A program made the position numbers and the translations under genes. A stretch of 45,065 bases of DNA, taken from an uncultured Neglectibacter sp. (GTDB taxonomy: Bacteria > Bacillota > Clostridia > Oscillospirales > Acutalibacteraceae). The notes beneath the pieces are model-generated. The model ran no database searches, was not told the origin of the DNA, and saw only the letters and a list, made by a program, of their open reading frames with translations. Each line of letters starts with the position of its first letter. The first letter of the stretch is position 1. This document shows, piece after piece, positions 1 through 14,131 of this stretch. The stretch spans positions 1-45,065 of the forward strand of contig CANSKS010000019.1 in NCBI GenBank assembly GCA_947647615.1, given 5' to 3'.

Positions 1-202
1 GGGCTGCATTGGCAAAGAGCGAGTTGTGGGAAGGCTGCTGCTGCGCGTTTGGCCCCTTTCGGGGCTGGGCGTGGTGCGGTAGTCCCCTGACCAATAAATA
101 GTTCCAGGTAAAGGAGGGAGTCGCTTCGGAGAAAGCATTTACTGTAGTACATCCAAATAGATGTAATAGATTTATTACAACAAAGAAAGGAAATGAGAGA
201 AC
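1..202 (+). promoter_or_regulatory. Leader/promoter region of the pilin operon
   Basis: No gene is seen here. Positions 52-65 form a GCCCC-TTTC-GGGGC hairpin, and the same CCCCTTTCGGGG core recurs between the pilin and sortase genes. A weak sigma-A-like pair is TTTACT (138-143) and TGTAAT (162-167) with an 18-base spacer. TGTAATA/TATTACA (162-168, 173-179) is a 7-bp inverted repeat overlapping that -10 and could be an operator. A clear Shine-Dalgarno AGAAAGG at about 184-190 precedes the pilin start. The stretch may also contain the tail of an upstream transcript. Confidence 0.4.
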
Positions 203-1858
203 ATGAAAACCTGCAAAAAATTCTTTTCGTTGGCTTTGGTGCTTCTTCTGTGCCTGGCCATGGCTGTGCCCGCTTTGGCGGCGGAGGGAGATAAAACCCT
301 TACCATGAAGAACCCCACTCCAGGCCATACCTACAAAGTTTACCAGATCTTCACCGGTGATGTTTATGACTCCAAAACGGCAGGAGAGAATGAGAAAACT
401 ATCTTTGGCCTTGCCAATGTGAAATACGGCGGAAACTATGGCACAAAAGGTGAAACCGTATCTGAGGATGACTTGGAAGACATCACCTCCAAAGGCGCCG
501 AGGCTTTTGCAAAGGAACTTGTTGGTACTAATGAGCAGCCTGGGTCATTAACGGGGGATGCTCTTTTAACGTGGACTACACCTAAAGAAGGAGCAACTTC
601 TCATACGGCGGAAGTAACCCCCGGTTATTACCTGATCGTAGACGAGGGCTATAATGGAGAAGCGCCTGCCGGCGACACTAATTCCGCTTACATGGTGGAG
701 ATCGTAGGCGACGTCGAGATCACCCCCAAGACTACGGTTCCTACCATTGATAAGAAAGTAGAGAATGATGAAGCTAATACTGGCTTTGGTACAACTGCCG
801 ACCACGACATCGGAGAGCCCTTCCAGTTTAAGCTGACTGCCAATGTGCCTGTGGAATACCTGGCGAAGTACGACACTTATAAGTTAGTGTTCCACGATAC
901 CATGTCTGCCGGTATCACTTTCGAGGACATTGCTAGCGTTACAGTGTCTGGCGTAGAGGGGGCACTTGCTGCTAATCAATATACGGCTGTGGATGTAGTT
1001 GGAGAGACCGGAGAAACCACCCTCACTGTGACGATTGAAGACTTGTTCCAAATTATCGGAAAGCCTGCTTTGCCTGATGAGGGCTCCGTTGAGGTAGTGG
1101 TAACCTATAACGTGCATTTGAACGAAAATGCCAAAGTCACGGATGGCGACGGTACGATTGAATTTGAAAAGAACAAGGCTTACCTGGAATATTCCAACGA
1201 CCCCAATAGCGACGGCACCGGTAAAACCACCGAGAAAGAAACCGAGGTCTACAGCTTCCAGCTGGATATTACAAAGTATGCCAATGAAGCAGATCCGAAT
1301 AACCCGAATGCCAACTTGCTTGCCGGCGCCGGGTTTACCTTGTGCGATTCCACTGGCAAGGAGATCTCGTTGTATTACAAAGAGGTAAACGGCGCTAAGA
1401 GCTACTATGTTTGGAATGGCAATCCGGATAAGAAGCCGGGAGACTTACTTCCTGTAGAGGCGGGAGAGGGCAATAAGAAGAACGAGATCATTACCGGCGA
1501 TGATGGCCATTTGGAGATTAACGGTTTGGATGTAGGTACTTATATACTCAAAGAAACCACCACACCCACCGGCTACAATAAAATCGATGACATCAAAATT
1601 GTGATTACCGCTGAGTATCAAAAAGGTACTGATGGAAGTACTACTTTAAAATTAGATCACACAAAACAAATTGGAGAACAGGAGCCAGTAAAGTCTGAAA
1701 AAGGCGGCACACAGATCAAGGTAATCAATAAGTCCGGCACCCTGCTGCCCAGCACCGGCGGCATGGGCACCACCCTGCTCTATGTGGTAGGCGGTTTGCT
1801 GGTGGTAGGCGCTGCCGTGATCTTAGTGGTGAGAAAGAGCGTTCGCCGCAAAAGCTGA
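203..1858 (+). CDS. LPXTG backbone pilin (isopeptide-forming fimbrial protein)
   Basis: This is a major pilin subunit of a sortase-assembled pilus. Seen: a signal peptide (residues 1-26, ending ALA), a GramPos pilin D1-like N-terminal part ending in PGYYLIVDE, a PTIDKKV segment near residue 180 whose lysines are the likely sortase-linkage site, a D2 isopeptide-type domain, then a Cna-B-like domain with an E-box (YILKETTTPTGY, about 450). The cell-wall sorting signal is LPSTG (515-519), a hydrophobic span and a basic tail. The length of 551 aa is normal for FimA/SpaA-type pilins. It is first in the operon and the class C sortase follows after two hairpins, which fits high pilin expression with less sortase. 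Polymerisation and isopeptide bonds are inferred from the family. Confidence 0.93.
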   Translation: MKTCKKFFSLALVLLLCLAMAVPALAAEGDKTLTMKNPTPGHTYKVYQIFTGDVYDSKTAGENEKTIFGLANVKYGGNYGTKGETVSEDDLEDITSKGAEAFAKELVGTNEQPGSLTGDALLTWTTPKEGATSHTAEVTPGYYLIVDEGYNGEAPAGDTNSAYMVEIVGDVEITPKTTVPTIDKKVENDEANTGFGTTADHDIGEPFQFKLTANVPVEYLAKYDTYKLVFHDTMSAGITFEDIASVTVSGVEGALAANQYTAVDVVGETGETTLTVTIEDLFQIIGKPALPDEGSVEVVVTYNVHLNENAKVTDGDGTIEFEKNKAYLEYSNDPNSDGTGKTTEKETEVYSFQLDITKYANEADPNNPNANLLAGAGFTLCDSTGKEISLYYKEVNGAKSYYVWNGNPDKKPGDLLPVEAGEGNKKNEIITGDDGHLEINGLDVGTYILKETTTPTGYNKIDDIKIVITAEYQKGTDGSTTLKLDHTKQIGEQEPVKSEKGGTQIKVINKSGTLLPSTGGMGTTLLYVVGGLLVVGAAVILVVRKSVRRKS

Positions 1859-1900
1859 GACCCGGTGACACCTGGTTAACATTGTTTTAAAAGTTTTACG

Positions 1901-1941
1901 CCCCGCCGTCCTGCCGGGCGGCGGGGACCCCTTTCGGGGGT
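1901..1941 (+). terminator. Tandem hairpins between pilin and sortase (attenuator/processing)
   Basis: CCCCGCCG (1901-1908) pairs with CGGCGGGG (1919-1926), and ACCCC-TTTC-GGGG follows directly (1927-1939). There is no T-tract, so full termination is unlikely. Partial termination or mRNA processing that lowers sortase expression relative to pilin is the likely role. The second hairpin repeats the core found at 52-65. Confidence 0.5.
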
Positions 1942-1965
1942 ACCTTAGTAAGGAGAGCCCGGCCT

Positions 1966-2859
1966 ATGGGAAAATGGTTAAAAAAGAATTGGCTCAACCT
2001 TTTTTTAGGCCTAGCGGTACTCGCCGGGCTTTGCTTACTGTTGTACCCTACCTTTAGTGACTGGTGGAACTCGCTGCACCAGTCCCAGGCCATCGCCGCC
2101 TACGTGGACACGGTAGAGGGCCTTTCCCAGGAGGAAAAGGACGCCATGCTCCAGGCCGCCCGGGAATATAACCAGCGGCTGTGGGAAAAAGGCAACCGCT
2201 GGATCTTGAGCGAAGAGGAGCAGCAGGAATACAACAGCTTGTTAGACGTTACCGGCACCGGCATTATGGGCTATGTGAACATCCCTTCCATTGACGTGAG
2301 CCTGCCCATTTACCACGGCAGCGAGGAAGCCGTGCTGCAAATTGCCAGCGGGCACATTTCCGGTACCTCCCTGCCTGTGGGGGGCGAAGGGGTGCACACT
2401 GCCATTTCGGGCCACCGGGGCCTGCCCTCCGCCCGGCTGTTTACCGACCTGGACCGTCTCGCGGAAGGGGATATCTTCACCCTTACGGTGCTGGGCCAAG
2501 TGCTCACCTACCAAATTGACCAAATTCGCATTGTGGAGCCGGCAGACCTTTCCCAAATGGAGCTTTACCCCGGGGAAGATTACTGCACCCTGCAAACCTG
2601 TACGCCCTACGGCGTCAACAGCCACAGGCTGCTGCTGCGGGGCCGCCGCATAGAGGACGTGCCCGAGGCTTTGGTAGCGGCTGCGGAGGCCGTGCAGATC
2701 TCCACCTATTTGGTGATCCCGGCAGTGGGAATTCCTTTGCTGTTCCTGCTGCTTACCGTGGTGTTAATTTACTATCGCCGCCGGGGCCCAAGGCTTACTG
2801 CGGAAGATCTAAAGCATCCCTTTGAAAAACGAAGCCCACGGAACCATAAGAAAAAATAA
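1966..2859 (+). CDS. Class C sortase (pilin polymerase)
   Basis: A membrane transpeptidase that cleaves LPXTG-type signals and joins pilin subunits through a lysine. Seen: an N-terminal membrane span (about 10-28), the sortase barrel, His150 in AISGHRG, catalytic Cys212 in TLQTCTPYG and Arg221 in HRLLLRG, then a C-terminal span (about 247-267) with a basic tail. Two membrane spans and the TCTPYGxNxHRLLxRG motif are typical of class C rather than class A or D sortases. The 297-aa length fits. The ATG has a Shine-Dalgarno AAGGAGAG at about 1949-1956. Its place just after the backbone pilin makes that pilin the expected substrate. Confidence 0.93.
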   Translation: MGKWLKKNWLNLFLGLAVLAGLCLLLYPTFSDWWNSLHQSQAIAAYVDTVEGLSQEEKDAMLQAAREYNQRLWEKGNRWILSEEEQQEYNSLLDVTGTGIMGYVNIPSIDVSLPIYHGSEEAVLQIASGHISGTSLPVGGEGVHTAISGHRGLPSARLFTDLDRLAEGDIFTLTVLGQVLTYQIDQIRIVEPADLSQMELYPGEDYCTLQTCTPYGVNSHRLLLRGRRIEDVPEALVAAAEAVQISTYLVIPAVGIPLLFLLLTVVLIYYRRRGPRLTAEDLKHPFEKRSPRNHKKK

Positions 2860-2888
2860 AGCCCACTGGAAAACAAGGAGGAATTGCC

Positions 2889-3959
2889 ATGAGAAGAAAA
2901 CAATGGCTGGCAGCGGCCTGCGCTTTGCTTTTTGCGGTGCTGGCCCTGGGGCTTACGGCTGTGGCAGCCAGCCAACCCTTGGATCTTGAAAAGGAATGCA
3001 CCCTTACGGTGAACCCCTGCAGCCTTGACATGCCCCAGGGAAAAGAGGTTGCGGAGGCCTTGCAGAACGCTGGCCTTGTAGTCGACCTTTACCAGGTGGC
3101 CCAGGCGGAAAAGGAACCGGGGGTAGATTCTTACGGCTTTTCCCCTTTGGAACCCTTTGCCGCTTTGGAAATTAAGGCCGATATGAAGGCCGGCGATTGG
3201 GCCCGGCTGGCCCAGCAGGCCGCGAAAACGGTGCGGGAGGCCAACCCCGCCCTTACGCCTCAAACGGCCAAAGCCGGCGAAGCGGCCTCTGTAACGCCGG
3301 GGCTCTACCTACTGGTGGCCCGGGGCCAGGAACCCCAGGAATATTGGGATACCGTAACCGAAAAACTGGAAGAAGAAAACGGCGCGGGGGAAGAGGAAAA
3401 GCTGGTCACCCGGGTAAAGGCGGGAGAAAAGCTTTACCGGTTCCTGCCGGAGCTGGTGGCGGTGCCCTCTAAAGAGGCTGTAAACGGAGAAATAAATACC
3501 GCCAACCCCGGCGAATGGATTTATGACCTTGTAGTGAACCTGAAGCCCGAGGAAGAACAGCAGTTTGGCCAGGTAGAAATTATAAAACGCCTTTTGACCT
3601 ACGACACCCAGCGCCCGGCCACCTTTGTCTTTCGGGTAAAGGCCGAGCTGGATGGGAAGGTTGTTTTTGACGAAGTGGTTTCCTTGGTATTTACCGGCCC
3701 CGGGGAAAAGCATACCCTGGTAGATCACTTGCCCGCAGGCGCCACGGTAACAGTGGAAGAGGTTTATTCCGGCAGCTCCTATACCCTGGTAAGCGCTTCC
3801 CCCGGTTCCGCTGTGGTAGACGCCGAAGAGGCGGCCCAATTTACCTTTGTGAACGATTACGATGCCGGCGAGCCCAAGGGCGGTAGCATCACCAACAATT
3901 TTACCTTTAACGGGGACAGTTGGGAATGGAAGCAGCTGGAAGATAACGCGACAGAATAG
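2889..3959 (+). CDS. Pilin-like surface protein without sorting signal
   Basis: A secreted protein of 356 aa. It has a signal peptide (1-27) and an N-terminal pilin D1-like part ending in TPGLYLLVARG, like the backbone pilin's TPGYYLIV. A later beta-rich domain (about 225-330, TFVFRVKAELDG through FTFVNDYD) resembles Spy0128/Cna-B-type pilin isopeptide domains. Unlike an ordinary minor pilin it ends in a short tail (NFTFNGDSWEWKQ) with no LPXTG motif, no C-terminal membrane span and no basic tail. The stop codon is clean and the next gene follows in 12 bases, so this is not an obvious frameshift. It may be a tip or accessory pilin, or be held non-covalently. Family placement is moderate; the function is inferred from context. 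Confidence 0.7.
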   Translation: MRRKQWLAAACALLFAVLALGLTAVAASQPLDLEKECTLTVNPCSLDMPQGKEVAEALQNAGLVVDLYQVAQAEKEPGVDSYGFSPLEPFAALEIKADMKAGDWARLAQQAAKTVREANPALTPQTAKAGEAASVTPGLYLLVARGQEPQEYWDTVTEKLEEENGAGEEEKLVTRVKAGEKLYRFLPELVAVPSKEAVNGEINTANPGEWIYDLVVNLKPEEEQQFGQVEIIKRLLTYDTQRPATFVFRVKAELDGKVVFDEVVSLVFTGPGEKHTLVDHLPAGATVTVEEVYSGSSYTLVSASPGSAVVDAEEAAQFTFVNDYDAGEPKGGSITNNFTFNGDSWEWKQLEDNATE

Positions 3960-3971
3960 GAGGCGGCCCTT

Positions 3972-4484
3972 ATGAAAAAGTCCACAGCCTTTTTGACCTT
4001 TGCGGCCATTGTTTTGGCGCTGGCTGCGAACCTTTCCCTTGCTTGGGGGTATTTTACCACCTACACCCAGGCCAGCGGCCGCTGGCCCCTGCGCATGGGC
4101 GACAAGACCAACATTACCGAAGACGTAAGCGATTGGACCAAACACGTTGTGATCACCAGCGAGGAAGGCTCGGAACCTGTGTTCGTGCGTGCCAAAGCCT
4201 TTGGCAGCGGGAAGTATGAGTTGGAATACAGCGATCCCACCAATAGCTGGTCCCGCGGCAATGATGGCTTTTATTACCTGAACCGCCCTTTAATGGGTGG
4301 AGAAAAGACGCCGGAACTGCTGGTGAAGATCAACGGCGTGCCCGATAAGCCCCAGGAGGAAGCAGATAAGGAGTTCAACGTGGTGGTGGTGTACGAGACC
4401 ACGCCGGTGTTGTACGACGCCTCCGGAAACCCCTATGCAAATTGGGAAATGACTCTGCATGCCACGGAAGGAGGCGACAGCTAA
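3972..4484 (+). CDS. SipW-dependent TasA/camelysin-like secreted protein
   Basis: A small secreted protein (170 aa). The N-terminus is a basic and hydrophobic signal peptide (1-24) followed by AWGYFTTYT, which resembles the SipW-type signal (hydrophobic core followed by YF[TS]D). The mature part is a compact beta-rich domain with no membrane span. A SipW-like peptidase is encoded in the same operon at 7254. The gene starts 12 bases after the previous stop and the next gene starts directly after its own stop, which points to translational coupling. By analogy with TasA and camelysin it may be a fibre or matrix subunit. The overall sequence is not one I recognise, so the specific role is open. 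Confidence 0.65.
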   Translation: MKKSTAFLTFAAIVLALAANLSLAWGYFTTYTQASGRWPLRMGDKTNITEDVSDWTKHVVITSEEGSEPVFVRAKAFGSGKYELEYSDPTNSWSRGNDGFYYLNRPLMGGEKTPELLVKINGVPDKPQEEADKEFNVVVVYETTPVLYDASGNPYANWEMTLHATEGGDS

Positions 4485-5282
4485 ATGGCCGGAAAATGGA
4501 AGAAGAAAAGCTCTGTGCCTGTGGGCACCCTGGCGCTGTTTTTTGTAGCGGTGGCTTTGCTGCTCTGCGGCTCGGTGGGCAGCGCCCAAGCGGCTCTCAC
4601 TTATTTTTCAGAAACCTACACCACCCGGGTGCAAACCCATAACATTGGCGTTACCCTTTTGGAAAACGGCAATAAAATCGCTTGGCGCGATTACCAGAAG
4701 GAGCGGGCCGAGGGGATTTGGAACGAAACCCAAAACCCGGTAGAAACCCGCCTGCTCCAGCATTTGGTGCCGGAAGGAGAAAACTTTTTAATGGGAAAGG
4801 GCTACGGGGAAGAGCTTGCCGTAGAAAATACCGGTACCATTGATGAATATGTGCGGGTGAACATTTACCGCTATTGGGTGAAGGTAGGCGAAAACGGGGA
4901 AGAGACCAAGGTTCGCGACCTGGACCCCTCTCTCATCGGCCTGCGTCTTGTGAACGGCGAGGAATGGCTGCTGGACGAAAGCGCTTCCACCAAGGAACGC
5001 CTTGTCCTTTATTACCGGGATATTTTGCCCGTTGGCCAGAAAACTCCTCTGTTCAGCGACCTTCTCACGGTGAACGGCGAAACCCTTGCCAAGGTCACTC
5101 AAACAAAAACCGTAGAAAACGGATATACCACCATCACCACCGAATACGATTACGACGGGGTGGAATTCCGGTTGGAAGTGGAAGCCAACGCAGTGCAGAC
5201 CCATAACGGGGAAGATGCCATTTGGAGCGCCTGGGGCCGCCGGGTCTCCGTAGATTCCAACGGCAGGCTCAGCCTGAATTAG
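4485..5282 (+). CDS. SipW-dependent TasA-like secreted protein
   Basis: A secreted protein of 265 aa, starting immediately after the previous stop. It has a basic N-terminus, a hydrophobic span (about 12-32) and then ALTYFSETY, again like a SipW-type cleavage region. The mature part shows EELAVENTGTIDEYVRV (about 107-123), a phrase typical of the TasA-like beta fold in which 'NTG' strands recur, and a later AVQTHNGEDAIWSAWG segment. There is no LPXTG and no C-terminal anchor. It is probably the larger partner of the preceding protein and may be a fibre component. TasA-like assignment rests on the signal type and motif style; assembly into fibres is inference. Confidence 0.65.
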   Translation: MAGKWKKKSSVPVGTLALFFVAVALLLCGSVGSAQAALTYFSETYTTRVQTHNIGVTLLENGNKIAWRDYQKERAEGIWNETQNPVETRLLQHLVPEGENFLMGKGYGEELAVENTGTIDEYVRVNIYRYWVKVGENGEETKVRDLDPSLIGLRLVNGEEWLLDESASTKERLVLYYRDILPVGQKTPLFSDLLTVNGETLAKVTQTKTVENGYTTITTEYDYDGVEFRLEVEANAVQTHNGEDAIWSAWGRRVSVDSNGRLSLN

Positions 5283-5331
5283 GAAAAGCCGGAGAAGAGC
5301 TTACCGGCTCGGGAAAGGAGAGAAAGCGGCA

Positions 5332-6075
5332 ATGGAACCCAAAACTATGGTTAAAAGAATCGCTTTGCTTTTGCTGGCTGGCCTTGTCCTTTTGGGAGCG
5401 GCCATGCCCGCGGCGGCCGAAGAGACCACGTCGACTCAGGACTGGAGGGTGACCTTCACCGACAAGCTGGAATCGAACTTCACCTCCGCCCAAATCAATG
5501 AGATCCGGCAAGGGGTGCAGCCCGGCGATAAAACCAGCTTCACCGTGAAGCTCATTAACCGGAACGTGAAATCTACCGATTGGTACATGGCAAATAAGGT
5601 GCTGAGCTCCTTGGAAGACGGCAGCGACGTGGCCAAGGGCGGCGGTTATACCTACAAGCTCACCTATAAGAACCCGGCGGGCACCGCCACCACCCTGTTC
5701 GACAGCGATACCGTAGGCGGCGATAAAACCCCGGGGGGCAACGAGGGCCTGCACCAGGCCACCGATGCTTTAAAGGATTATTTCTATTTAGATACCCTGG
5801 CCACAGGGCAAACAGGGTACATTACCCTGGAGATCGCCCTGGATGGCGAAAGCCAGGGCGATAACTACCAGAACACCGCCGCCGATATTCAAATGCAGTT
5901 TGCGGTGGAGCCGGTTTCCAGCAGCGGCAGCCGTACCCAGGTGGTAAAAACCGGCGACGAAACCAACCTTACCCCCCTTTATGTTTTAATGCTCCTCAGC
6001 GGCGGGGCGCTGTTGGGATTTTGTATTTACAGCTTGAGAAAGAGCCGGAAGCAGGGAAAGAAAAAGCAAAAATAA
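5332..6075 (+). CDS. TasA-like surface protein with KTGD-type sorting tail
   Basis: A 247-aa protein with an ordinary signal peptidase I-type signal (ends AMPAAAEE, about residue 27). The body has QPGDKTSFTVKLINRN and YITLEIALDG phrases and a QNTAADIQMQF strand, all resembling TasA-like or Ig-like beta domains. The C-terminus is VVKTGDETN, a hydrophobic span (about 215-235) and a very basic tail (SLRKSRKQGKKKQK). This has the layout of a cell-wall sorting signal, but the motif is VKTGD, not LPXTG. The class B sortase downstream is the obvious candidate enzyme. The gene could instead encode a simple single-span anchor. ATG chosen after GGAAAGGAGAGAAAG. Confidence 0.65.
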   Translation: MEPKTMVKRIALLLLAGLVLLGAAMPAAAEETTSTQDWRVTFTDKLESNFTSAQINEIRQGVQPGDKTSFTVKLINRNVKSTDWYMANKVLSSLEDGSDVAKGGGYTYKLTYKNPAGTATTLFDSDTVGGDKTPGGNEGLHQATDALKDYFYLDTLATGQTGYITLEIALDGESQGDNYQNTAADIQMQFAVEPVSSSGSRTQVVKTGDETNLTPLYVLMLLSGGALLGFCIYSLRKSRKQGKKKQK

Positions 6076-6130
6076 AAACAATCCTTTCCCTTTTCTCAAT
6101 TCCCTTACGCCAAAAGAAAGGTGGTTCCAC

Positions 6131-7201
6131 ATGATGAAGCTCCTTAAACGCCTTCTCGGCGCCGGGCTGGCCCTGGCAATTTTGCTGAGCTGTGCCGTGA
6201 CAGCCCTTGCCCGGGAAGAAACGTATACCTACAAGGTGCGCATTTTCGCGGGGCAGCAGGGCCTCATCGATGGCGGCGAAGTAGTTGTATACTCGAATCT
6301 TTCCTATGGAGATAAGATCAATTTTAATAACAACCGAGTTACCCTGAAGAACAATAGTAAATATTATGTAAGGGGCATCCGGGAAAGCGGCAAGGGTTCG
6401 GAAGACCTGGAAAATACCGGGAACAATACCAGGCTTGCTTCTTTTACGGTAGAACGGGACCAGGATTACGTGGTGGTCTACGGCCTTTTGGGCGAAGCCA
6501 CGGAATATACCATCCATTATCAAAATGCTGCCGGGGAGGCTTTGGCCCCCAGCGAGACCTATATGGGCAACGTGGGCGACAAACCGGTAATTGCCTTTTT
6601 GTACATCGAGGGCTACCAGCCCCAGGCCTATAACCTCACGAAGACCCTCTCCGCCAACGCGGCGGAAAACGTGTTCACCTTTGTTTACACGCCCGTGACG
6701 GTTCCCCAGGTGACGCCTACAGTCACCCAAAACCCGGGGGCCACTGTGGTCACTCCGGCCACACCGGTTCCGGAAGGGGGAACAGGAACCGCGCCGGCGC
6801 CCTCTGCCACGCCGGCAGGGGAAGGCCCTGCGGAAGTGGTAGCCACTCCTTTGCCCCAAGCAGCCACTCCCTCTCCCGACCAAACGGTGAGCCTGCCGGA
6901 AGGGGAAACCCCCGGAGTAAATGCCCCGCAGGACTTGATCGATATCGATGAGGAAAACGTGCCTTTGGCGGGTGTAGATCAAAAAGAAGACGAATCGAAG
7001 CCCCTTTCTTCGGAAGGTCAGTTTTTTTGGAGCAACATTCCGGTGCTGGGGAAAATTTTAATTGCCGTGCTGGTTTTGGGCGCTTTGGCCGGTGGCCTGT
7101 GGTGGCTGTTGTTCTGGCGAAAACGCAAGAAGGACCAGGAAACCCAAGAGCTCATGGAGCTGGAATTGGGCTCCGAAGACGAGGAAGAGGAAGAGGAATA
7201 A
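6131..7201 (+). CDS. MucBP-like membrane-anchored surface protein
   Basis: A 356-aa protein with a signal peptide (1-27, ending ALA). A domain with YTIHYQNAAGEALAPSE and VFTFVYTP (about 137-195) resembles MucBP-type mucin-binding repeats. A long linker rich in Pro, Thr and Ala (about 196-270) follows, then a transmembrane span (about 305-330), a basic stop-transfer stretch and an acidic Glu/Asp tail. There is no LPXTG motif, so it seems held in the membrane, with the linker acting as a wall-spanning stalk. It could dock the fibre at the cell surface or bind host glycans. The MucBP link is by motif only. Confidence 0.6.
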   Translation: MMKLLKRLLGAGLALAILLSCAVTALAREETYTYKVRIFAGQQGLIDGGEVVVYSNLSYGDKINFNNNRVTLKNNSKYYVRGIRESGKGSEDLENTGNNTRLASFTVERDQDYVVVYGLLGEATEYTIHYQNAAGEALAPSETYMGNVGDKPVIAFLYIEGYQPQAYNLTKTLSANAAENVFTFVYTPVTVPQVTPTVTQNPGATVVTPATPVPEGGTGTAPAPSATPAGEGPAEVVATPLPQAATPSPDQTVSLPEGETPGVNAPQDLIDIDEENVPLAGVDQKEDESKPLSSEGQFFWSNIPVLGKILIAVLVLGALAGGLWWLLFWRKRKKDQETQELMELELGSEDEEEEEE

Positions 7202-7253
7202 ACGAAGGAAACGAAAATTCCCTGGCAACGGGAAAAAGGGGAGATAGATCGGT

Positions 7254-7760
7254 TTGAAGGGGAAAATTTCCGCCGCGCTGTGCAATGTGTTTGGTGTTCT
7301 CATTTTGCTGCTGGTAATTGCGTCCTGCTTGCCTGTCACATTGCCTGCGCTGCTGGGGTATGAGATGTACAATGTTTCCAGCGGCAGCATGGAACCCAAT
7401 TTGCCTGTGGGCAGCCTGATCTATGTGAAACCTGCCGTGCCGGAGGAGCTTTCGGAAGGGGAAATTATCGCCTTTTGGCGGGGCGATTCCGTGGTGACCC
7501 ACCGGCTGGTGGAAAACCGCAGCCTGGAAGGCGATTTTGTGACAAAAGGAGATGCGAACCAGGAAGAAGACCTGAACACAGTGCCCTATGCCAATTTAGT
7601 TGGCGTGGTGACCTGTCACATCCCCTATTTGGGCCAAATGCTGGTGGTATATACCAGCACGGTTGGGAAAATTTACGTTATTTGCTTTGCCGCCTGCGGC
7701 GCTATGCTGAACGTCTTAGCCGGCCGCATCCGTGACCGGGCAAAGGAACAGCAGGAGTAA
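7254..7760 (+). CDS. sipW: SipW-like (ER-type) signal peptidase I
   Basis: A membrane serine peptidase of 168 aa that removes signal peptides from dedicated substrates. Seen: an N-terminal span (about 11-33), SGSMEP with catalytic Ser45, His83 in VVTHRL in place of the lysine of ordinary bacterial signal peptidase I, Asp100 in TKGDANQEED, and a C-terminal span. The Ser-His-Asp set marks the SipW/ER-type clade. The start is TTG, with GGGGAG at about 7238 as ribosome site. The two SipW-type signal peptides upstream (genes at 3972 and 4485) are its likely targets. Catalytic residues are intact, unlike SipA chaperones of streptococcal pilus loci. Confidence 0.88.
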   Translation: MKGKISAALCNVFGVLILLLVIASCLPVTLPALLGYEMYNVSSGSMEPNLPVGSLIYVKPAVPEELSEGEIIAFWRGDSVVTHRLVENRSLEGDFVTKGDANQEEDLNTVPYANLVGVVTCHIPYLGQMLVVYTSTVGKIYVICFAACGAMLNVLAGRIRDRAKEQQE

Positions 7761-7774
7761 AGAGGAAGGGGTTT

Positions 7775-8551
7775 ATGGGAAAAAAGTTTAAGATTTTTTT
7801 CGTTGTGGTGTTTGCCTTGGTGTTTGTGGGCTCCGCTGCCGGAATTTTAACGGCCCAGGAACGTTACCGCCAAAGCCGGCAGGCCTATAGCCAGGCGGCG
7901 GAAGCCTTTACCGCTACGGCGCCGCCTTCCTCTTCCGCCGTTTCTGCGGTGCGGAGCCAGCCAGAGGAAACCTCCCGGCCGGACCTTCCCGTTTATGTGG
8001 ATTTTAAAAAGCTTTTAGAGGAAAGTCCCGATGTTGTGGCCTGGCTCTATTGCCCCGATACCGTGATTAACTACCCTGTGGTGCAAGGAACCGATAACGA
8101 GTTTTACTTGCACCACAGCTATGATGGGGAGGCGTTTAACAGCGGCTCCATTTTTGTGGATTATGAGAACTCTCCCGGTTTTGTGGATTCCAACACCGTC
8201 ATTTATGGCCACAACATGAGCGACGGTTCCATGTTTGCCAGCATTTCCAACTGGAGCAGCCAGTCTTTTTACGACCAGCATCCCCTTATGTGGCTTTTGA
8301 CTCCTACGGAAAATTACCGGGTAATCCTGGTAAGCGGTTATACGACCTCCGCCTATTCCGACACTTACCAGATTTTTAGGTTACCTTCTTTGGAATTTGA
8401 AGAATACTTAGGACAGGCCAAGGCACAGTCGGATTTTGCCATGGAAGATCCTTTAGACCCGGATGCCCATTATGTGTTGCTTTCTACCTGCGCCTATGAA
8501 TTTGACGACGCCAGGTATGTTCTGCACGGCAGGTTGGAAAAAATAGAGTGA
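7775..8551 (+). CDS. srtB: Class B sortase
   Basis: A membrane transpeptidase of 258 aa that attaches proteins carrying non-LPXTG signals, or attaches finished pili, to the wall. Seen: one N-terminal span (about 6-26), a Ser/Ala-rich linker, YPVVQGTDNEFYLHHSY (about 89-105), catalytic His146 in YGHNM, Cys239 in LLSTCAYEF and Arg247 in DDARYVLHGRL. These motifs and the single N-terminal anchor are typical of class B. The likely substrate here is the VKTGD-tailed protein at 5332. The stop overlaps a GTG of the next open frame (GTGA). Confidence 0.92.
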   Translation: MGKKFKIFFVVVFALVFVGSAAGILTAQERYRQSRQAYSQAAEAFTATAPPSSSAVSAVRSQPEETSRPDLPVYVDFKKLLEESPDVVAWLYCPDTVINYPVVQGTDNEFYLHHSYDGEAFNSGSIFVDYENSPGFVDSNTVIYGHNMSDGSMFASISNWSSQSFYDQHPLMWLLTPTENYRVILVSGYTTSAYSDTYQIFRLPSLEFEEYLGQAKAQSDFAMEDPLDPDAHYVLLSTCAYEFDDARYVLHGRLEKIE

Positions 8552-8598
8552 GGCTGGGAAACAGCTTTTGCTTTTTTAGAAGAGGTGTCGCGGTTTTT

Positions 8599-9630
8599 AT
8601 GGTGGGAAAAACAAAGAGAAAGGCAGCGGCTTTGCTGTTGATCTTCCCTTTGCTTTGGGGGGGCTGCAGCACTGCCCAGACAGACCCTGTGCCCGACCCG
8701 GTTTCCCAAACCAGAGCAGAAGAAGATTCTCAAACCGGCGTGGAAGAAAGCTCCCGGGCCGGCGGGCAGGAGAGTTCTCCGGCCGGTGAAGGGGAACCCC
8801 CTTCTTCTCCCAAGGAGGGAGGCGCCTCCTATACAGCCCCGGATTTTGCGGGATCGGCCTTTCACAGGGAAGCGGCCCAAGGGGAAAATGGCGTGCTGCT
8901 GGACCTTTCTGCTGTTGCGGAGGGTTACGTGGCGGTTTCGGCCCGGAGCGAGGCACGGCTGAAATTTCAAGTGCTGAAGGAAGACCAAACCTATACCTAT
9001 GACATGGCAAAAACCGGTGAGCCCTCCATATTCCCCTTGCAGTGCGGCAACGGGGATTACCTTTTTCGGGTCATGGAACAGGTGGGCGATAAGTATGGCA
9101 AATTGTACGAGGCCACATGCCGGGTAGAGCTTCAAGATGAATTCCAGCCTTTTCTGCGCCCAAGCGATTATGTAAACTATACCCCGGATTCCCACTGCGT
9201 GCAGGAGGCGGCCCGCTTGGCGGAACAGCAGCCCGACGCTATGGGAGTGGTACAGGCGGTGTTCGGTTATATTTGCGACACAGTAACCTATGACAAGGAA
9301 AAAGCGGCCCAGGTGCAAAGCGGCTACCTGCCGAGCCCGGATGAAACGCTGGAAACCGGGAAAGGCATATGCTTCGATTATGCCAGCCTGGCGGCGGCTA
9401 TGCTCCGCAGCCAGGGAATTCCTACGAAAATGGTCTTCGGTTATGTGCAGCCCAACGATCTGTACCATGCCTGGAACATGTTTTATACCCGGGAAAGCGG
9501 ATGGGTGACGGTGGAATACCAGGCCGAGTCCAACACCTGGAACCGGCTGGACCTGACCTTCTCCGCCAACGGCGGAGACCCCCAGTTTATTGGGGATGGG
9601 AAAAATTATACCAATGTATACTTTTACTGA
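8599..9630 (+). CDS. Transglutaminase-core lipoprotein
   Basis: A predicted surface thiol enzyme (343 aa from this start). The N-terminus is basic, then hydrophobic, then LLWGGCS, which is a lipobox-like signal with an unusual Trp at -3. A Ser/Glu/Gly-rich linker follows. The transglutaminase core has GKGICFDYASLAAAMLRSQG (Cys258), YHAWNMF (His290) and NRLDLTF, giving the expected Cys-His-Asp set. A GTG at 8548 overlaps the sortase stop and is in frame, but it puts 17 residues before the lipoprotein-like signal, so the ATG at 8599 is preferred. Such domains act as cross-linking or proteolytic enzymes. Its position between a sortase and a pilus-motor set suggests work on the surface fibres; the reaction is not shown. 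Confidence 0.8.
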   Translation: MVGKTKRKAAALLLIFPLLWGGCSTAQTDPVPDPVSQTRAEEDSQTGVEESSRAGGQESSPAGEGEPPSSPKEGGASYTAPDFAGSAFHREAAQGENGVLLDLSAVAEGYVAVSARSEARLKFQVLKEDQTYTYDMAKTGEPSIFPLQCGNGDYLFRVMEQVGDKYGKLYEATCRVELQDEFQPFLRPSDYVNYTPDSHCVQEAARLAEQQPDAMGVVQAVFGYICDTVTYDKEKAAQVQSGYLPSPDETLETGKGICFDYASLAAAMLRSQGIPTKMVFGYVQPNDLYHAWNMFYTRESGWVTVEYQAESNTWNRLDLTFSANGGDPQFIGDGKNYTNVYFY

Positions 9631-9644
9631 AAGCAGGTGGCGGT

Positions 9645-10691
9645 ATGGGAAATAAGAAGCTGGATATGCTTGGGGTAAGCGCCTTTTGCGAAAGCATGGC
9701 GATGATGGTGCAGTCGGGCATACAAACGGAGGAAGCGGTGGCCCTTTTGCGCCAGGAAGACCAAAAAGAAGCGGGACTTTTGGAGCAGGCCCTGGCCCTT
9801 ATGCAGGCGGAACTGGAAAACGGTGGCAGCCTTTCCGGAGCCATGGAGAAATCGGGTGCTTTCCCTGCTTATGCCTTGAAAATGGTGGCTGCGGGAGAGG
9901 GGTCTGGGCGGTTGGAAGCGGTGCTTTTCCAACTGAGCCGCTATTACGCCAAGCAGAAGACCTTGTCCCAAAAGCTGCGCAATACAGTTACTTACCCGGC
10001 AGTCATGCTGGTGTTGATCATTGTGGTGCTGGCTCTAATGCTCACTATGGTGCTCCCTGCCTTTACCCAGGTCTATAACCGGCTTACCGGCAGCCTGGCA
10101 GATTCTTCCTATGGCTACATTCGCTGGTCCTACGGCTTTTGCTGGGGGGCTCTTGGGGTTATGGTACTGCTTTCCGGAGCGCTGCTTTTGGGGTTAGCCC
10201 TCTGGAACAGCAAAAAACGCCGGGCGGTAGAGGGAGTCCTGTATAAACTGCCTGTTTGCGGGGAGCTTTTGCGGCAGTTGGGCCTTTACCGGTTTACGGC
10301 AGCTCTTTCCACCTTTCTTGCCAGCGGAGAGCTGCAAGACCTGGCTGTGGCGGAAAGCAAGGAAATGACCGCCTGTAAGCCCATAGAAGAAAAGCTTTCC
10401 CGGTGCCAGGCCCATTTGGAAGAAGGCCATAGCATTGCTCAGGCTGCCTTTGAAGAAAAGCTTTATGAACCGGTTTACGGCCGTATGCTGCTGGCAGGGG
10501 AACGCAGCGGCAAGCTGGAAGAGATTTTGAGGCAGATAGAGGGGTTGCTGGAAGAGCATTGCACCAGCCTTGCGGACCGGCTCACCGGCATTTTAGATCC
10601 GTTGCTTTCCGGGGTGATGCTGGTGACGGTGGGAGTCTCCCTGCTCAGCGTTATGCTGCCCCTGTTGGGCATTATGAGTTCCATTGGCTAA
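9645..10691 (+). CDS. pilC: PilC/GspF-like inner-membrane platform protein
   Basis: The platform protein of type IV pili and type II secretion systems, to which the motor ATPases bind. It is 348 aa from the ATG with AGGTGG (9634-9639) as ribosome site; the open frame runs upstream into the previous gene, but those codons are out of frame with it. Seen: two T2SSF domains, each with a GERSGKLEE-type loop (AAGEGSGRLEAVL in the first, LLAGERSGKLEEIL in the second) and hydrophobic spans at about 117-140, 160-185 and 320-345. At 348 aa it is shorter than the usual ~400. It starts a reduced pilus/secretion gene set. Confidence 0.88.
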   Translation: MGNKKLDMLGVSAFCESMAMMVQSGIQTEEAVALLRQEDQKEAGLLEQALALMQAELENGGSLSGAMEKSGAFPAYALKMVAAGEGSGRLEAVLFQLSRYYAKQKTLSQKLRNTVTYPAVMLVLIIVVLALMLTMVLPAFTQVYNRLTGSLADSSYGYIRWSYGFCWGALGVMVLLSGALLLGLALWNSKKRRAVEGVLYKLPVCGELLRQLGLYRFTAALSTFLASGELQDLAVAESKEMTACKPIEEKLSRCQAHLEEGHSIAQAAFEEKLYEPVYGRMLLAGERSGKLEEILRQIEGLLEEHCTSLADRLTGILDPLLSGVMLVTVGVSLLSVMLPLLGIMSSIG

Positions 10692-10726
10692 AATAGTCTT
10701 TTGACAAAATAAGGAAACGTGGTTGC

Positions 10727-11047
10727 ATGTATTACATAGATAAAAAAAGGAAACGCTGGCCGCTGGTTGTGGCTGTAGCTGCTTTGACACTTGTTTTGCT
10801 GCTGGGATGCTTGTGGGCGGTTTCTTCTTCCGGACAGAATTTGGAGGAGGAGGGAGTGGCCGCCTTGAAAGCCGCCATACAGCGAAGCGCCCTGCAATGT
10901 TATGTGGTAGAGGGGATGTACCCTTCCAGCCTGGATTATTTGGAAGAAGGCTATGGCCTGCAGATCAATCGGGAGGATTTTTATGTGATATACCATGCCT
11001 TTGCCTCTAACCTTCCTCCAGAGGTTACGGTACTGCGTAAGCCTTAG
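10727..11047 (+). CDS. Small single-span protein of the PilC-PilT set
   Basis: I do not recognise a named family. The 106-aa protein has a basic N-terminus, one membrane span (about 12-32) and a short periplasm/wall-side part with ALKAAIQRSALQCYVVEGMYPSSLDYL. The helix after the span and the size resemble a minor pseudopilin, and the 'EGMYPSSLDYLEE' phrase is like the core of type II secretion pseudopilins. There is no Gly-Phe prepilin peptidase site at the start of the span. ATG-preceding bases are AAGGAAACG. Confidence 0.5.
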   Translation: MYYIDKKRKRWPLVVAVAALTLVLLLGCLWAVSSSGQNLEEEGVAALKAAIQRSALQCYVVEGMYPSSLDYLEEGYGLQINREDFYVIYHAFASNLPPEVTVLRKP

Positions 11048-11059
11048 CGAGAGGAGGAG

Positions 11060-11518
11060 ATGGCGTCTATGGGAAAAGGGCGTTCGCCGGTGGCGTTTTT
11101 CACCTTGGGGATAGCCGGGCTGTTTTTGGCCGGCTTTTTCCTGGTGGTGGTGTTTGGCGCTTCCACCTATCGCAGCGCGGTGGAAACCCAGGACCAAAAC
11201 AACAGCAGCCGGGCCTTGCTGAGTTATCTGCATACCTGCGTAAGGGCCAACGACACCGAGGGCGCGGTGACCTGCTACGAAGAGGCGGGCAGCCCGGTTT
11301 TGGTGGTAGCGGACCAGGAAACCGGGTATGCCATAAGGGTGTACCAGCATGAGGGAAGTTTGCTGGAAGACTACGGAAAGCTCCAGGCTCCTTTAGACCC
11401 GGAAGGGGCCGCCGTGATCGGAAAAACCCAGGTGTTTCGGGTAGAGCAGGAGGGTTCCCGGTTTACGGTGACGACAGATGCCGGGCAAACCGTGTTTACT
11501 ACAAGGAGCGAAAAATGA
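11060..11518 (+). CDS. DUF4860-like protein of the PilC-PilT set
   Basis: A 152-aa protein with a single N-terminal span (about 11-33) and a beta-rich extracytoplasmic part with many Gly and Val. The layout and sequence style match what I recall as DUF4860, a family found near type II secretion-like genes in Clostridia; this is from memory and unchecked. Two ATGs compete: 11060 and 11069. GAGGAGG (11051-11057) is very close to the first and 11 bases before the second, so either start is possible. It overlaps the next gene by ATGA. Function unknown; a minor pilin or assembly subunit is the best guess. Confidence 0.5.
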   Translation: MASMGKGRSPVAFFTLGIAGLFLAGFFLVVVFGASTYRSAVETQDQNNSSRALLSYLHTCVRANDTEGAVTCYEEAGSPVLVVADQETGYAIRVYQHEGSLLEDYGKLQAPLDPEGAAVIGKTQVFRVEQEGSRFTVTTDAGQTVFTTRSEK

Positions 11519-11943
11519 AGGAAAAGCAGCGCATAACCGCCTTTTATTTGGAGCTTCTCCTTTTGGCTGTGGTGTTTGTGGCGGTGATTTTATCGCTGAC
11601 ACAGGTGTTTGCCTTGGCTAAAGAGAGAAGCAGCCGTGCCCAAATTCTCACCCGCTCGGTGGTTCTGGCAGAAAATACCGCCGAAGTGTTTGCCGGCGCC
11701 GGGGAAGAGGACCTCTTAGAGCTGTTGGGCGGCGAGAGCAGCGCCGCCTGGGTAGAGGAGGGCCGTGTGCTTCGGGCGGCCTACGACGAAAAAATGAATC
11801 CCTTTGCCGGTGGTGATTACCGGGTAAACCTGGAAATTCAGCCGGAGGGAGAACTGAGCGTTTGCGAGATTTCTGTCTATTGGCGGGATGAAGAAGCCCC
11901 AGTCTATACCTTAGAAACGGCGGTATGCCGCCGGGAAGCTTAA
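11515..11943 (+). CDS. Small single-span protein of the PilC-PilT set
   Basis: A 142-aa protein translated through an ATGA overlap with the previous gene. It has one N-terminal span (about 9-31, FYLELLLLAVVFVAVILSL) with a Glu near its start, then an amphipathic helix (about 33-60) and a beta-rich part. A Glu in the span, an extended helix and a small head are the layout of type IV pilin-like proteins, but no prepilin cleavage glycine is present. I do not recognise a named family. Confidence 0.5.
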   Translation: MKEKQRITAFYLELLLLAVVFVAVILSLTQVFALAKERSSRAQILTRSVVLAENTAEVFAGAGEEDLLELLGGESSAAWVEEGRVLRAAYDEKMNPFAGGDYRVNLEIQPEGELSVCEISVYWRDEEAPVYTLETAVCRREA

Positions 11944-11971
11944 AAAACCGGGAGAGGAAGGTGCTTTGGCC

Positions 11972-12349
11972 ATGAAACAAGTGCCAATTCGTTTGGGCCC
12001 CTTGGCCCTGCTGCTTACCGTGATTACCATTTGTATGGCGGTATTGGGCGTTCTCACCTTGTCTACCGCCCAAAGCGACCTTTTGACAGCGGAAAAATAT
12101 TCTCGGGCTGTGGCGGTACGTTACCGGCTGGAAGCTCTGGGGCAGGCCTTTTTAGAGAAAGAGGAAGAAATTCCCTGGGATGAGGCCGATTCCAATGGAA
12201 TTTATTGGAAGACCTTTACCGAAGGCGATGCCAGCCTGCATATTGGCCTAATAAAGTCTGAGGAAGCGGGATGCCGGGTCGTGAGTTGGCGGTTTGCGCG
12301 GGATTGGCAGGAGCAAAACAGTATGGGGCAGCTTTGGCAGGGAGAATAG
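11972..12349 (+). CDS. Small single-span protein of the PilC-PilT set
   Basis: A 125-aa protein with one N-terminal span (about 9-31, LALLLTVITICMAVLGVLTL), a helix rich in charged residues (about 35-65) and a small C-terminal part. The ATG at 11972 is 10 bases from AGGAAGG; a TTG two codons upstream at 11966 is also possible. Like its three neighbours it has a pilin-like layout without a prepilin peptidase site. It precedes the PilT gene by 31 bases. Function unknown. Confidence 0.5.
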   Translation: MKQVPIRLGPLALLLTVITICMAVLGVLTLSTAQSDLLTAEKYSRAVAVRYRLEALGQAFLEKEEEIPWDEADSNGIYWKTFTEGDASLHIGLIKSEEAGCRVVSWRFARDWQEQNSMGQLWQGE

Positions 12350-12380
12350 CCCTGGGAGAAATAGACGGCAGGAGGGTTTT

Positions 12381-13436
12381 ATGGAACTACAGGAAATTTT
12401 AAATTTGGCTATCCAGCAGGGCGCTTCCGATATCTTTTTGGTGGCCGGCCTTCCGGTTACCATCAAGCGGGAAGGCCATCAGGTCCGGATGGGAGAAGGC
12501 ATCCTGATGCCGGAAAAGACCATGGAGCTCATTACGGCCATTTACCAAATAAGCGGCCGTTCCGATGTCCATTTGAAAAATGGGGAGGACGACGATTTCT
12601 CTTTTGCGCTCAAGGGCTCTGGGCGTTTCCGAGTGAACGTGTTCCGCCAAAGAGGTTCTTTGGCCGCGGTGATCCGCCTCATTCGCTTCGGTTTGCCGGA
12701 CCCGGTGGAAATGGAGATTCCGGAAGAGGTAATTTCGCTGGCGGAAACCCAAAAAGGTTTGGTGCTGGTGGCCGGTTCTGTGGGTACGGGGAAATCTACT
12801 ACACTGGCCTGCATTATTCAGCGCATCAACCAAACCAGAGACTGCCATATTATTACTATGGAAGACCCCATTGAATATTTGTACCGCCATGAGCGTTCTA
12901 TTGTCACCCAAAGGGAAATTTCCATCGATACGCCCGGTTATCCCGCCGCCTTGCGTTCCGCTTTGCGGGAAAGCCCGGATGTGATTTTGCTTGGGGAAAT
13001 GCGGGATTACGATACGGTTTCGGCGGCCATCACCGCTACAGAAACCGGAGTGCTGCTGTTCAGCACACTGCACACCAGCAGCGCGGCCAATACCATTGGC
13101 CGCATTGTAGACGTTTTTCCTGCCAGCCAGCAGCAGCAGGTAAAAATACAGCTGTCGCAAATTTTAAAAAGCGTGGTGTGCCAGCAGCTGGTACCCGACG
13201 TAAACGGGAAGCTTGTTCCCGTATTCGAAATTATGAAGACAAACAACGCCATACAAAATATGATCCGGGAAGACAAATTGCACCAGCTGGAATCGGTGAT
13301 GCAGTCCGGCGCGGCCGAGGGGATGCGTACCATGGACGGCAGTCTTTTGAAGCTGTACCGCCAAGGCAGAATCTCCAAGGAAACCGCCCTGATGTATTGC
13401 GCAAACTATGAAGTGATGACCAAGCGGTTGGCTTAA
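12381..13436 (+). CDS. pilT: PilT-like twitching/retraction ATPase
   Basis: A hexameric ATPase of the secretion-ATPase superfamily that usually drives pilus retraction. It is 351 aa from an ATG with GGAGGG (12371-12376) upstream; the open frame extends further upstream into another gene's frame. Seen: Walker A GSVGTGKSTT (Lys138), Asp-box EDPIEYLY, Walker B region DVILLGEMRD and the His box FSTLHTSSA, followed by a PilT-type C-terminal part. The length and lack of a long N-terminal extension argue for PilT over PilB. No PilB, pilin, prepilin peptidase or PilMNO genes are in the window. Confidence 0.9.
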   Translation: MELQEILNLAIQQGASDIFLVAGLPVTIKREGHQVRMGEGILMPEKTMELITAIYQISGRSDVHLKNGEDDDFSFALKGSGRFRVNVFRQRGSLAAVIRLIRFGLPDPVEMEIPEEVISLAETQKGLVLVAGSVGTGKSTTLACIIQRINQTRDCHIITMEDPIEYLYRHERSIVTQREISIDTPGYPAALRSALRESPDVILLGEMRDYDTVSAAITATETGVLLFSTLHTSSAANTIGRIVDVFPASQQQQVKIQLSQILKSVVCQQLVPDVNGKLVPVFEIMKTNNAIQNMIREDKLHQLESVMQSGAAEGMRTMDGSLLKLYRQGRISKETALMYCANYEVMTKRLA

Positions 13437-13479
13437 CGGCTTTCCGGGCTGGATTCTGGTTTTTTGAAATAATATAATG

Positions 13480-13517
13480 AACCCCCTTCCAGCTATTGTG
13501 TATAGCCCAAGGGGGTT
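13480..13517. terminator. Bidirectional terminator between pilT and flavin reductase
   Basis: AACCCCC (13480-13486) pairs with GGGGGTT (13511-13517), followed by a T-rich run. It separates convergent genes. Confidence 0.65.
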
Positions 13518-13537
13518 CTTGCTTAACGAAAAGCTTT

Positions 13538-14044
13538 TTATTCCTTTTCCAATATTTTTACGATCTCTCCAACAAAGACACGGTGCAGGTCCCTGTCCGG
13601 GTACCACTTTTCCAGCTGGCTTTGGTCTAAGAAGCAGGAGGCTTCCATGTCTTGGCGGTACAGCTTCCGGCATATAAGGACAAGCTTCGCCTGGGCGTAA
13701 TAGGGGGCCAGATTGTCAAAAACAGGGGTCAGGCCCGTTTCCTTGTCCTTGTCAAAATCGCGTCCCGATTTTGTCCCAAAAAAGTTCAGGGCTTCCCGAT
13801 AATTCTCGTCGAAAAAACAAAGAGAGTAATATTGTTCCCGCTCTACAAACTCCAAGGTGTAGCGCTGGGGGCGGATGTAGACGGTAGAAACATAACTTCC
13901 CCACAGCTCTCCCAAACCGCCCCAGCTGGCAGTCATGGCATTGTGAGAGGCTTTGTTTCCAGCGGTGACGAGCATCCAATCTTTTTTAATGAGAGTGAAG
14001 GGGTTTCCGGTAAAGGCTTCGGGAGAAATTTCATGAAACGCCAT
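13538..14044 (-). CDS. Flavin reductase-like domain protein
   Basis: A 168-aa cytoplasmic protein of the flavin reductase-like (flavoredoxin) family, which binds FMN in a split barrel. Seen: the N-terminal TLIKKDWMLVTAGN, then HNAMTASWGGLGELWG, the region where such proteins contact flavin, and IRPQRYTLEFVE. Members reduce flavin or carry electrons; the partner is not known. The ATG has AAAGGA about 11 bases upstream. It stands alone between convergent pilT and the co-directional substrate-binding gene. Confidence 0.8.
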   Translation of the reverse strand: MAFHEISPEAFTGNPFTLIKKDWMLVTAGNKASHNAMTASWGGLGELWGSYVSTVYIRPQRYTLEFVEREQYYSLCFFDENYREALNFFGTKSGRDFDKDKETGLTPVFDNLAPYYAQAKLVLICRKLYRQDMEASCFLDQSQLEKWYPDRDLHRVFVGEIVKILEKE

Positions 14045-14131
14045 AGAAAATCAAATCCTTTCTTTATGTTGGGATTCCTTGGTTTAATAGGTATGGAAAC
14101 GGGGGAACCTTTAGCACTTTTGGAAAAGAGG

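Follow-up and report, generated by a model that had tools for sequence, protein, structure and literature searches.

The question raised by the left part of the window (the whole stretch analyzed, 45,065 nucleotides, which is one entire contig of a 2.8-Mb, 94-contig, 94.8% complete draft genome of an uncultured Neglectibacter sp.) is whether a sortase pilus, SipW-dependent export, a transglutaminase, PilC, and PilT belong to a single apparatus. The original prediction joined them in one continuous locus of fifteen genes. The run on one strand with small gaps and overlaps was confirmed (203–13436, intergenic gaps of −4 to 107 bases), with sixteen consecutive open reading frames (ORFs), g01 to g16, instead of fifteen; the gene content that can be seen starts at the left contig end, 202 bases 5′ of g01. 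The locus is two separable units side by side, a sortase/SipW cassette (203–8551) and a seven-gene module (8599–13436), and the second of these is probably, in our judgment, a conserved machine of the type IV filament family without prepilin peptidase or extension ATPase. Gene order and its conservation, the lack of PilB in the window genome, the rarity of the cleavage motif, the lack of PF01478 in about half of the carriers, and, in many loci, neighbors of the cyclic di-GMP (c-di-GMP) type were all observed by computation.

A conserved seven-gene module

The order of the module is transglutaminase-pilC-g12-g13-g14-g15-pilT. The transglutaminase, PilC, and PilT of the original prediction were all recovered above model cut-offs (Table 1; g16 is PilT/PilU by TIGR01420, 396 bits with a cut-off of 319), but the four small genes between pilC and pilT (10727–12349) had been overlooked. 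Profile searches found the complete order, from Clostridia to Coriobacteriia, in 72 of the best 80 loci retained from a transglutaminase-alignment scan of named genomes; because these loci were drawn by transglutaminase, its presence there is by construction, and a separate draw used PilT. The latter, within the host family, yielded, apart from the window, 14 module-type loci, 11 of them complete and three truncated at contig ends (in G065 and G096 every contig that shows the module breaks off within it, and the G038 contig is cut in pilC). The 72 loci, the 11, and the window make up the 84-locus set used below, in which one place is counted twice (L036, L124). Among incomplete loci of the first draw, L090, L113, L120, and L128 were truncated at contig ends, the L062 contig ended 634 bases past the transglutaminase gene with no pilC recognized, and L065, L105, and L119 had no pil genes within at least 4 kb downstream of it. 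Median gaps inside the module were −4 to 15 bases, and the same seven genes stand in order from Oscillospiraceae to Coriobacteriia, the titles of carriers including Neglectibacter, Fournierella, Gemmiger, Eubacterium oxidoreducens, and Lachnospiraceae FE2018, with Collinsella, Slackia, and Adlercreutzia among the Coriobacteriia. At class level, 43 of 391 genomes, from 25 of 223 genera, contained a match to the g12 profile; at phylum level the figure was 20 of 398, including 14 strong matches.

The transglutaminase core of g10 has Cys-His-Asp, found in that order in 77 of 84 relatives, and the protein may cross-link, an activity that is putative from sequence, protease and deamidase being the other possibilities; its likely start is the ATG at 8599 (the ORF opens at 8548) and its lipobox is not canonical. 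Walker A was present in 82 of 84 module PilTs. An AIRNLIRE-like motif is typical of PilT/PilU retraction ATPases; it was found in 72 of the 84 and in only two of seven outgroup sequences. Module PilTs formed one clade against these seven other PilT-like ATPases of the family (Shimodaira-Hasegawa-like approximate likelihood ratio test 100), in a tree made by a quick method with long-branch warnings and with an outgroup that is imperfect because few sequences were captured (seven of 15 intended) and because so few of them carry the motif. Two loci, L048 (G040) and L049 (G006), have a second PilT about 50% identical to that of the module, located among metabolic genes, with no pilC recognized in the stretch read.

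The four overlooked genes encode small one-helix proteins, for which a relation to pseudopilins may be identified to differing degrees. When compared with eight Gsp proteins of E. coli K-12, the best matches were g12 to GspG (E 2e-4), g13 to GspJ (0.057, not significant), g14 to GspI (1.4e-4), and g15 to GspK (2e-3), an overall order of G, J, I, K; hhalign with one E. coli Gsp protein at a time gave no useful information except for g14 with GspI. The best case is g14, which has Glu five residues after the would-be cleavage site in 72 of 84 relatives and whose profile matched an ordinary minor pilin with E 8.8e-11 in a 16-sequence set, while the residue before that site was Thr in 41 and Gly in one of the 84. 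There is a pseudopilin-like EGxYP segment in g12, and its structure model, from 13 sequences, has a 52-residue helix and a small beta head (mean predicted local distance difference test score 87), which suggests a pilin-like lollipop fold. Searches of general databases gave less: Pfam run on members of the sets A1, A3, and A4 named no pilin family beyond T2SSI (0.022), a Tad-like family (0.0033), and for one g12 a type IV secretion pilin (0.016), the strongest match of that set being one g15 to an unrelated membrane family (2.4e-5), and in profile searches of the PDB, where matches were weak, g14 hit a designed protein (0.021), a protein without a name (0.23), and PilA5 (0.28), g12 hit TcpA (0.26), and none of the g15 matches was a pilin. 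Judged in this way, kinship with pseudopilins appears graded, good for g14, moderate for g12, and weak for g13 and g15.

Signaling genes were frequently found near the module. Among the 84 loci, 31 have a BTAD activator (29 of them within 2 kb), 24 a GGDEF protein (20 within that distance), 25 a protein of the REC-GGDEF-EAL type (22), and 20 an Hpt protein (12). These counts ignore kinship, and the REC-GGDEF-EAL profile may recount GGDEF or other response-regulator ORFs; domain names were taken from ten exemplars, of which one gave no match and another proved to be a signal peptidase. These neighbors cluster within 0–4 kb, and beyond 4 kb there were no GGDEF, one BTAD, three EAL-type, and five Hpt ORFs, in farther bins held by 53–61 loci (4–6 kb on both sides, 6–10 kb upstream only). 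The pattern suggests that expression or activity of the module follows c-di-GMP and phosphorelay signals. At L061 a hybrid histidine kinase with an SBP_bac_3 sensor (5587–8928) lies beside the module, and similar ORFs occur in 12 of 84 loci.

Cleavage motif, peptidase, and ATPase

Mom et al. 2023 (PMC10790768) count four components as the universally conserved core of type IV filaments, namely the pilins, a prepilin peptidase, an extension ATPase, and a platform protein. The platform (PilC/GspF/ComGB) is represented in the module by g11. The class III signal (Gly at −1, a hydrophobic residue at +1, Glu at +5) is nearly absent, the strict motif occurring in 0/84, 0/84, 1/84, and 0/82 of g12 to g15 (g15 was scored in 82 of 84 loci, with L035 and L047 read by eye); because the strict pattern requires Glu5 it is no test of K-type subunits such as g15. 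No conserved Gly precedes the helix in the g12 and g13 alignments. By comparison, pilins of the GFTL/GMTL type were found in 7/7 ordinary pilus loci of the host family, control loci which had been selected beside a peptidase or PilB and four of which are in genomes that also carry the module; an earlier strict-motif scan of 20 PilT-flanking stretches, mostly of 4 kb and not selected for pilin genes, had found the motif in two.

The peptidase family PF01478 had no match in the window genome, nor in 10 of 15 and 21 of 50 module genomes, together 31 of 64, since G135 and G589 are the same and 15 and 50 thus make 64 distinct genomes. The 15 are the module carriers among a first set of 22 genomes, 12 of which had a match, and the 50 are the genomes searched out of those of the 72 complete named loci. 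All 29 peptidase carriers of the 50 also have a second strong T2SSE ATPase among the matches listed, and in 18 of the 21 peptidase-less genomes no further T2SSE match listed exceeds 32 bits (exceptions G555, G572, and G595). Among isolates, Neglectibacter sp. X58 is without PF01478 and without another strong T2SSE ATPase among the matches listed; Adlercreutzia mucosicola DSM 19490, likewise without PF01478, has a second T2SSE ATPase. Similarly, the pilin signature PF07963 was not matched in the window genome (G000) or in 29 of the 31 peptidase-less carriers (exceptions G555 and G572), and was present in both controls, G135 and G025. An extension ATPase (PilB/GspE/ComGA) was not found in the window genome, in which the one near-full T2SSE match is the module PilT and the others are partial (27.7 bits, over the cut-off, across 49 profile positions; 20.5 bits across 28); other carriers with a second system do possess an extension-type ATPase. 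With strict motifs rare and gaps in peptidase and PilB, the module is therefore type IV filament-like yet without two of the four components regarded as universal.

The cassette and its junction with the module

In the cassette an LPXTG pilin and class C sortase, side by side as in sortase-assembled pili, are combined with SipW, BsaA/TasA-like substrates, and a class B sortase. Both predicted sortases held, each above its cut-off (Table 1), and g01 scored below cut-off against the SpaH/EbpB model. Models related to the SipW/TasA-BsaA system matched g05 and g08 with scores below cut-off. For g08 the archaeal-type signal peptidase I model gave a match above its cut-off (89, cut-off 52), but the Bacillus SipW model matched only partially (81.6, cut-off 190); of three proteins predicted to be TasA-like, one was upheld below threshold (g05, BsaA 27.9 of 60 bits), one was marginal (g04), and g06 had no match. 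Across cassette copies g05 is kept, and the C-terminal tail of g06 (VxTGD, membrane helix, basic residues) is conserved. In G125 (locus L034, oriented 1281–1868) the LPXTG pilin gene is closely preceded by one for a type I signal peptidase (S26, 117.8 bits).

Table 1. Genes of the locus, with positions in the window
Gene	Product	Position	Strand	Support
g01	major LPXTG pilin, GramPos_pilinBB, SpaA fold, LPSTG anchor	203..1858	+	pilinBB 65.7 bits, cut-off 30.5
g02	class C (pilin) sortase	1966..2859	+	260 bits, cut-off 160
g03	surface protein with DUF5979	2889..3959	+	domain match
g04	small exported protein, possible SipW substrate	3972..4484	+	BsaA model E 0.026 only
g05	BsaA/TasA-like SipW substrate	4485..5282	+	BsaA model E 1.7e-6, below cut-off
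g06	exported protein, conserved C-terminal VxTGD, membrane helix, and basic tail	5332..6075	+	sorting-signal-like
g07	MucBP-like membrane-anchored surface protein	6131..7201	+	below-cut-off match
g08	SipW-like signal peptidase, TTG start	7254..7760	+	model matches
g09	class B sortase	7775..8551	+	172.7 bits, cut-off 153.75
g10	transglutaminase-family lipoprotein, opens seven-gene module	8599..9630	+	Transglut_core 80.5 bits, cut-off 23
g11	PilC/GspF platform protein	9639..10691	+	T2SSF 130.5 bits, cut-off 25.2
g12	GspG-like pseudopilin-like protein, without strict cleavage motif	10727..11047	+	predicted lollipop-like fold
g13	DUF4860 protein in GspJ-like pseudopilin position	11060..11518	+	weak, sequence match not significant
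g14	GspI-like pseudopilin-like protein; Glu +5 kept, Gly −1 not	11515..11943	+	profile and motif comparison
g15	GspK-like pseudopilin-like protein; no Glu +5; Gly-Pro at GspK −1/+1	11966..12349	+	
g16	PilT-family ATPase	12381..13436	+	only near-full-length T2SSE-family match found in genome

Sortase pili of the FCT/PI-2 type have an LPXTG major pilin, a class C sortase, and a dedicated signal-peptidase homologue. The cassette is alike in this core trio, whereas its SipW-type peptidase, BsaA-like proteins, and class B sortase are extra. A second relative is the SipW-BsaA operon of C. perfringens, where SipW and a BsaA-like substrate likewise have a class B-type sortase gene alongside, srtB being dispensable for BsaA polymers (PMC7395162); to this the window cassette adds the LPXTG pilin and class C sortase.

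The junction between cassette and module is real and recurs outside the genus, yet the adjacency is infrequent. Eight of 84 module loci have the cassette immediately upstream (the window, L034, L054, L055, L060, L074, L091, and L106), including other Neglectibacter (L054, L055) and the isolate Lachnospiraceae bacterium FE2018 (L106), and L034, of the same genus, is the sole case among the 14 PilT-drawn loci; in L056 only a class B sortase was visible before the contig end. All eight sit in one 55-row PilT subclade, on which five changes are needed by the quick tree. The g05 profile found the cassette in 5 of 150 genomes of the host family, one match being weak. Two of these five adjoin the module and three do not: G001, 99% complete, has the cassette with no transglutaminase and no module PilT match, G065 has its module PilT on another contig, and G101, with the weak match, has no module PilT match. 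In L062 and L065 cassette and transglutaminase are together with module PilT on a separate contig. Cassette and module thus occur apart and form separable units, either of which may be accompanied by the transglutaminase. At L065 the region 3′ of cassette and transglutaminase (8086–10789) holds a possible BTAD-type regulator, by N-terminal resemblance, and then a second transglutaminase; elsewhere a class B-like sortase adjoins the module while the other cassette genes are missing, divergently upstream in L042 and L044 and 3′ of pilT in L038.

In the window a single operon is plausible, but it is not a general rule: in L106 a hairpin separates the halves, whereas the same-strand junctions of the window, G125, L054, L055, and L060 are tight. 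Gaps are 6–20 bases in L054, L055, and L060 and 36–135 in L074, L091, and L106. The L106 hairpin (9588–9640, A/T-flanked, z −3.83), which has sipW on one side and the transglutaminase gene on the other, is probably a terminator; a terminator pattern scan did not flag it, and one promoter-like site was found there with 0.6 expected. In the window a promoter scan of 1–14200 was at chance (eight found, 7.8 expected). A terminator-like site at 8550 was rejected, since folding did not favor it (z −1.47), and there was nothing beyond chance at the junction. Of the two findings that were to speak against a joined locus, rarity of the adjacency was thus observed and separate promoters were not seen in the window.

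Competing explanations and a possible machine

Several findings weigh against a machine that dispenses with prepilin processing. An ordinary-pilin profile reached E 0.01 in only 4, 7, 10, and 4 of g12 to g15 (of 84, and 82 for g15), when 2 of 128 unrelated membrane proteins reached that value and none of the 128 reached 0.001; its best match was the g14 of L042 (2.4e-11), the sole member with the full motif, followed by L046 (1.2e-6). A larger g14 alignment lost its PDB pilin matches, g13 with 45 sequences found no PDB pilin, and g12, g13, and g15 resemble pilins only weakly by sequence. Gly occupies the GspK cleavage position in 77 of 82 g15 proteins, and a looser Gly-hydrophobic pattern, with no requirement for Glu5, fits 26, 52, and 23 of 84 g12 to g14, although this pattern, for which no control was run, says little either way. 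Some cleavage of g12 to g15 may therefore occur. PF01478 is present in 29 of 50 carriers (33 of 64 overall), many genomes are draft metagenome-assembled genomes and absences are consequently weaker than in closed ones, neither the window nor G125 showed c-di-GMP-type neighbors next to the module, and all functional steps of the machine are inferred. From the Gly residues and the L042 motif it could be argued that an unrecognized peptidase or a signal peptidase (SipW, LepB) processes the four proteins and the filament is otherwise ordinary, which we hold to be quite unlikely given that Pro follows the g15 Gly in 56 of 82, that the strict motif is missing from every g12 and g13, whose alignments also lack a conserved Gly ahead of the helix, and that about half of carriers have no PF01478 match. 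That g12 to g15 are unrelated to pilins, PilC and PilT moving some other membrane complex, agrees with the failure of Pfam and PDB searches to name a pilin family above noise for g12, g13, and g15; this appears improbable beside the resemblance of g14 to minor pilins above controls with its conserved Glu, the G/J/I/K order of best Gsp matches, the lollipop-like model of g12, and the placement between pilC and pilT. That the module is what remains of a type IV pilus locus in decay, as the missing PilB, PF01478, and PF07963 matches of the window genome might indicate, is hardly credible and already disfavored, since the same gene order extends from Oscillospiraceae to Coriobacteriia with Walker A and the transglutaminase triad largely kept.

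Two further explanations assign the module to larger or better known structures. The composite fiber of the original prediction, in which sortase pilus, SipW fiber, transglutaminase, and PilC/PilT build one moved, cross-linked fiber, draws on the tight junctions, on adjacency across families, and on L062 and L065, where the transglutaminase follows the cassette but is not immediately succeeded by pil genes. It is weakened by separability, as in G001, by the L106 hairpin, and by the other 76 of 84 module loci where no cassette was seen (upstream DNA was at least 1 kb in 76 of the 84 and at least 3 kb in 68, eight holding less than 1 kb), and BsaA polymers of C. perfringens did not need the sipW-adjacent sortase (PMC7395162); we find it very doubtful. 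A DNA-uptake pseudopilus like the Com pilus (T4dP) of monoderms we judge unlikely. As described in PMC10790768, Com is similarly a small machine of few genes with one platform protein and a minor-pilin-like set in which Glu5 is missing from the final subunit, and ComEC was matched in 14 of 14 module genomes. However, ComEC was also matched in 10 of 14 control genomes and so does not discriminate (module-less genomes of the family were not searched for it), the ATPase and platform scored 127 of 300 bits for ComGA and 118 of 240 for ComGB, both below cut-off, and many neighbors are signaling genes. Com also includes a peptidase (ComC) and an extension ATPase (ComGA), and its pilins are cleaved, whereas the module has a PilT-family ATPase, carriers of which about half are peptidase-less, near-absence of the strict motif, and an added transglutaminase.

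Other members of the family differ from the module in turn. The type II secretion pseudopilus (GspG-H-I-J-K, GspF) resembles it in having PilC/GspF followed by pseudopilin-like genes with best matches to GspG, J, I, and K, but the ATPase of the module is of PilT type, its pseudopilin-like genes are only four, and none of its seven genes is GspC, D, L, M, or O (the rest of the genome was not searched for these). The type IVa pilus shares the PilT and PilC families and, in many loci, c-di-GMP-type neighbors; the window genome is unlike it in the missing PilB, PF01478, and PF07963 matches, and PilM/N/O are absent from the module (not searched for elsewhere).

If the module is indeed a machine without peptidase or extension ATPase, g12 to g15 would keep their leaders, with the N-terminus cytoplasmic and the C-terminus outside, and would assemble on PilC, the platform, as a short stub resembling G-J-I-K. 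A PilT hexamer could turn PilC and thereby move the stub and, by analogy, a PilT-type motor would pull, not push. The surface transglutaminase lipoprotein would be the partner or effector of the stub, modifying wall or surface proteins, and in the lineage of the window the sortase fiber may be partner or substrate, perhaps from the same transcript. A more ambitious proposal, which we advance tentatively and rate at somewhat short of even, is a distinct machine class of gut Clostridia and Coriobacteriia, with leader-retaining pseudopilins, no peptidase, and PilT alone, coupled to a surface transglutaminase and c-di-GMP signaling, into which the sortase/SipW fiber is wired in some lineages.

Searches of the available literature found no paper that names DUF4860, none uniting PilT, PilC, transglutaminase, and pseudopilin, and none on a module like this, and a search on unprocessed prepilins returned only the Com pilus paper (PMC10790768), in which prepilin cleavage and an extension ATPase are regarded as universal for type IV filaments. 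The module places DUF4860 and a conserved lipoprotein transglutaminase in a context. Its presence in cultured isolates opens a test of whether a PilC platform works with uncleaved subunits and, likewise, of whether a PilT-family motor drives work alone; if the proposal is true, such motors could operate in a manner not yet described.

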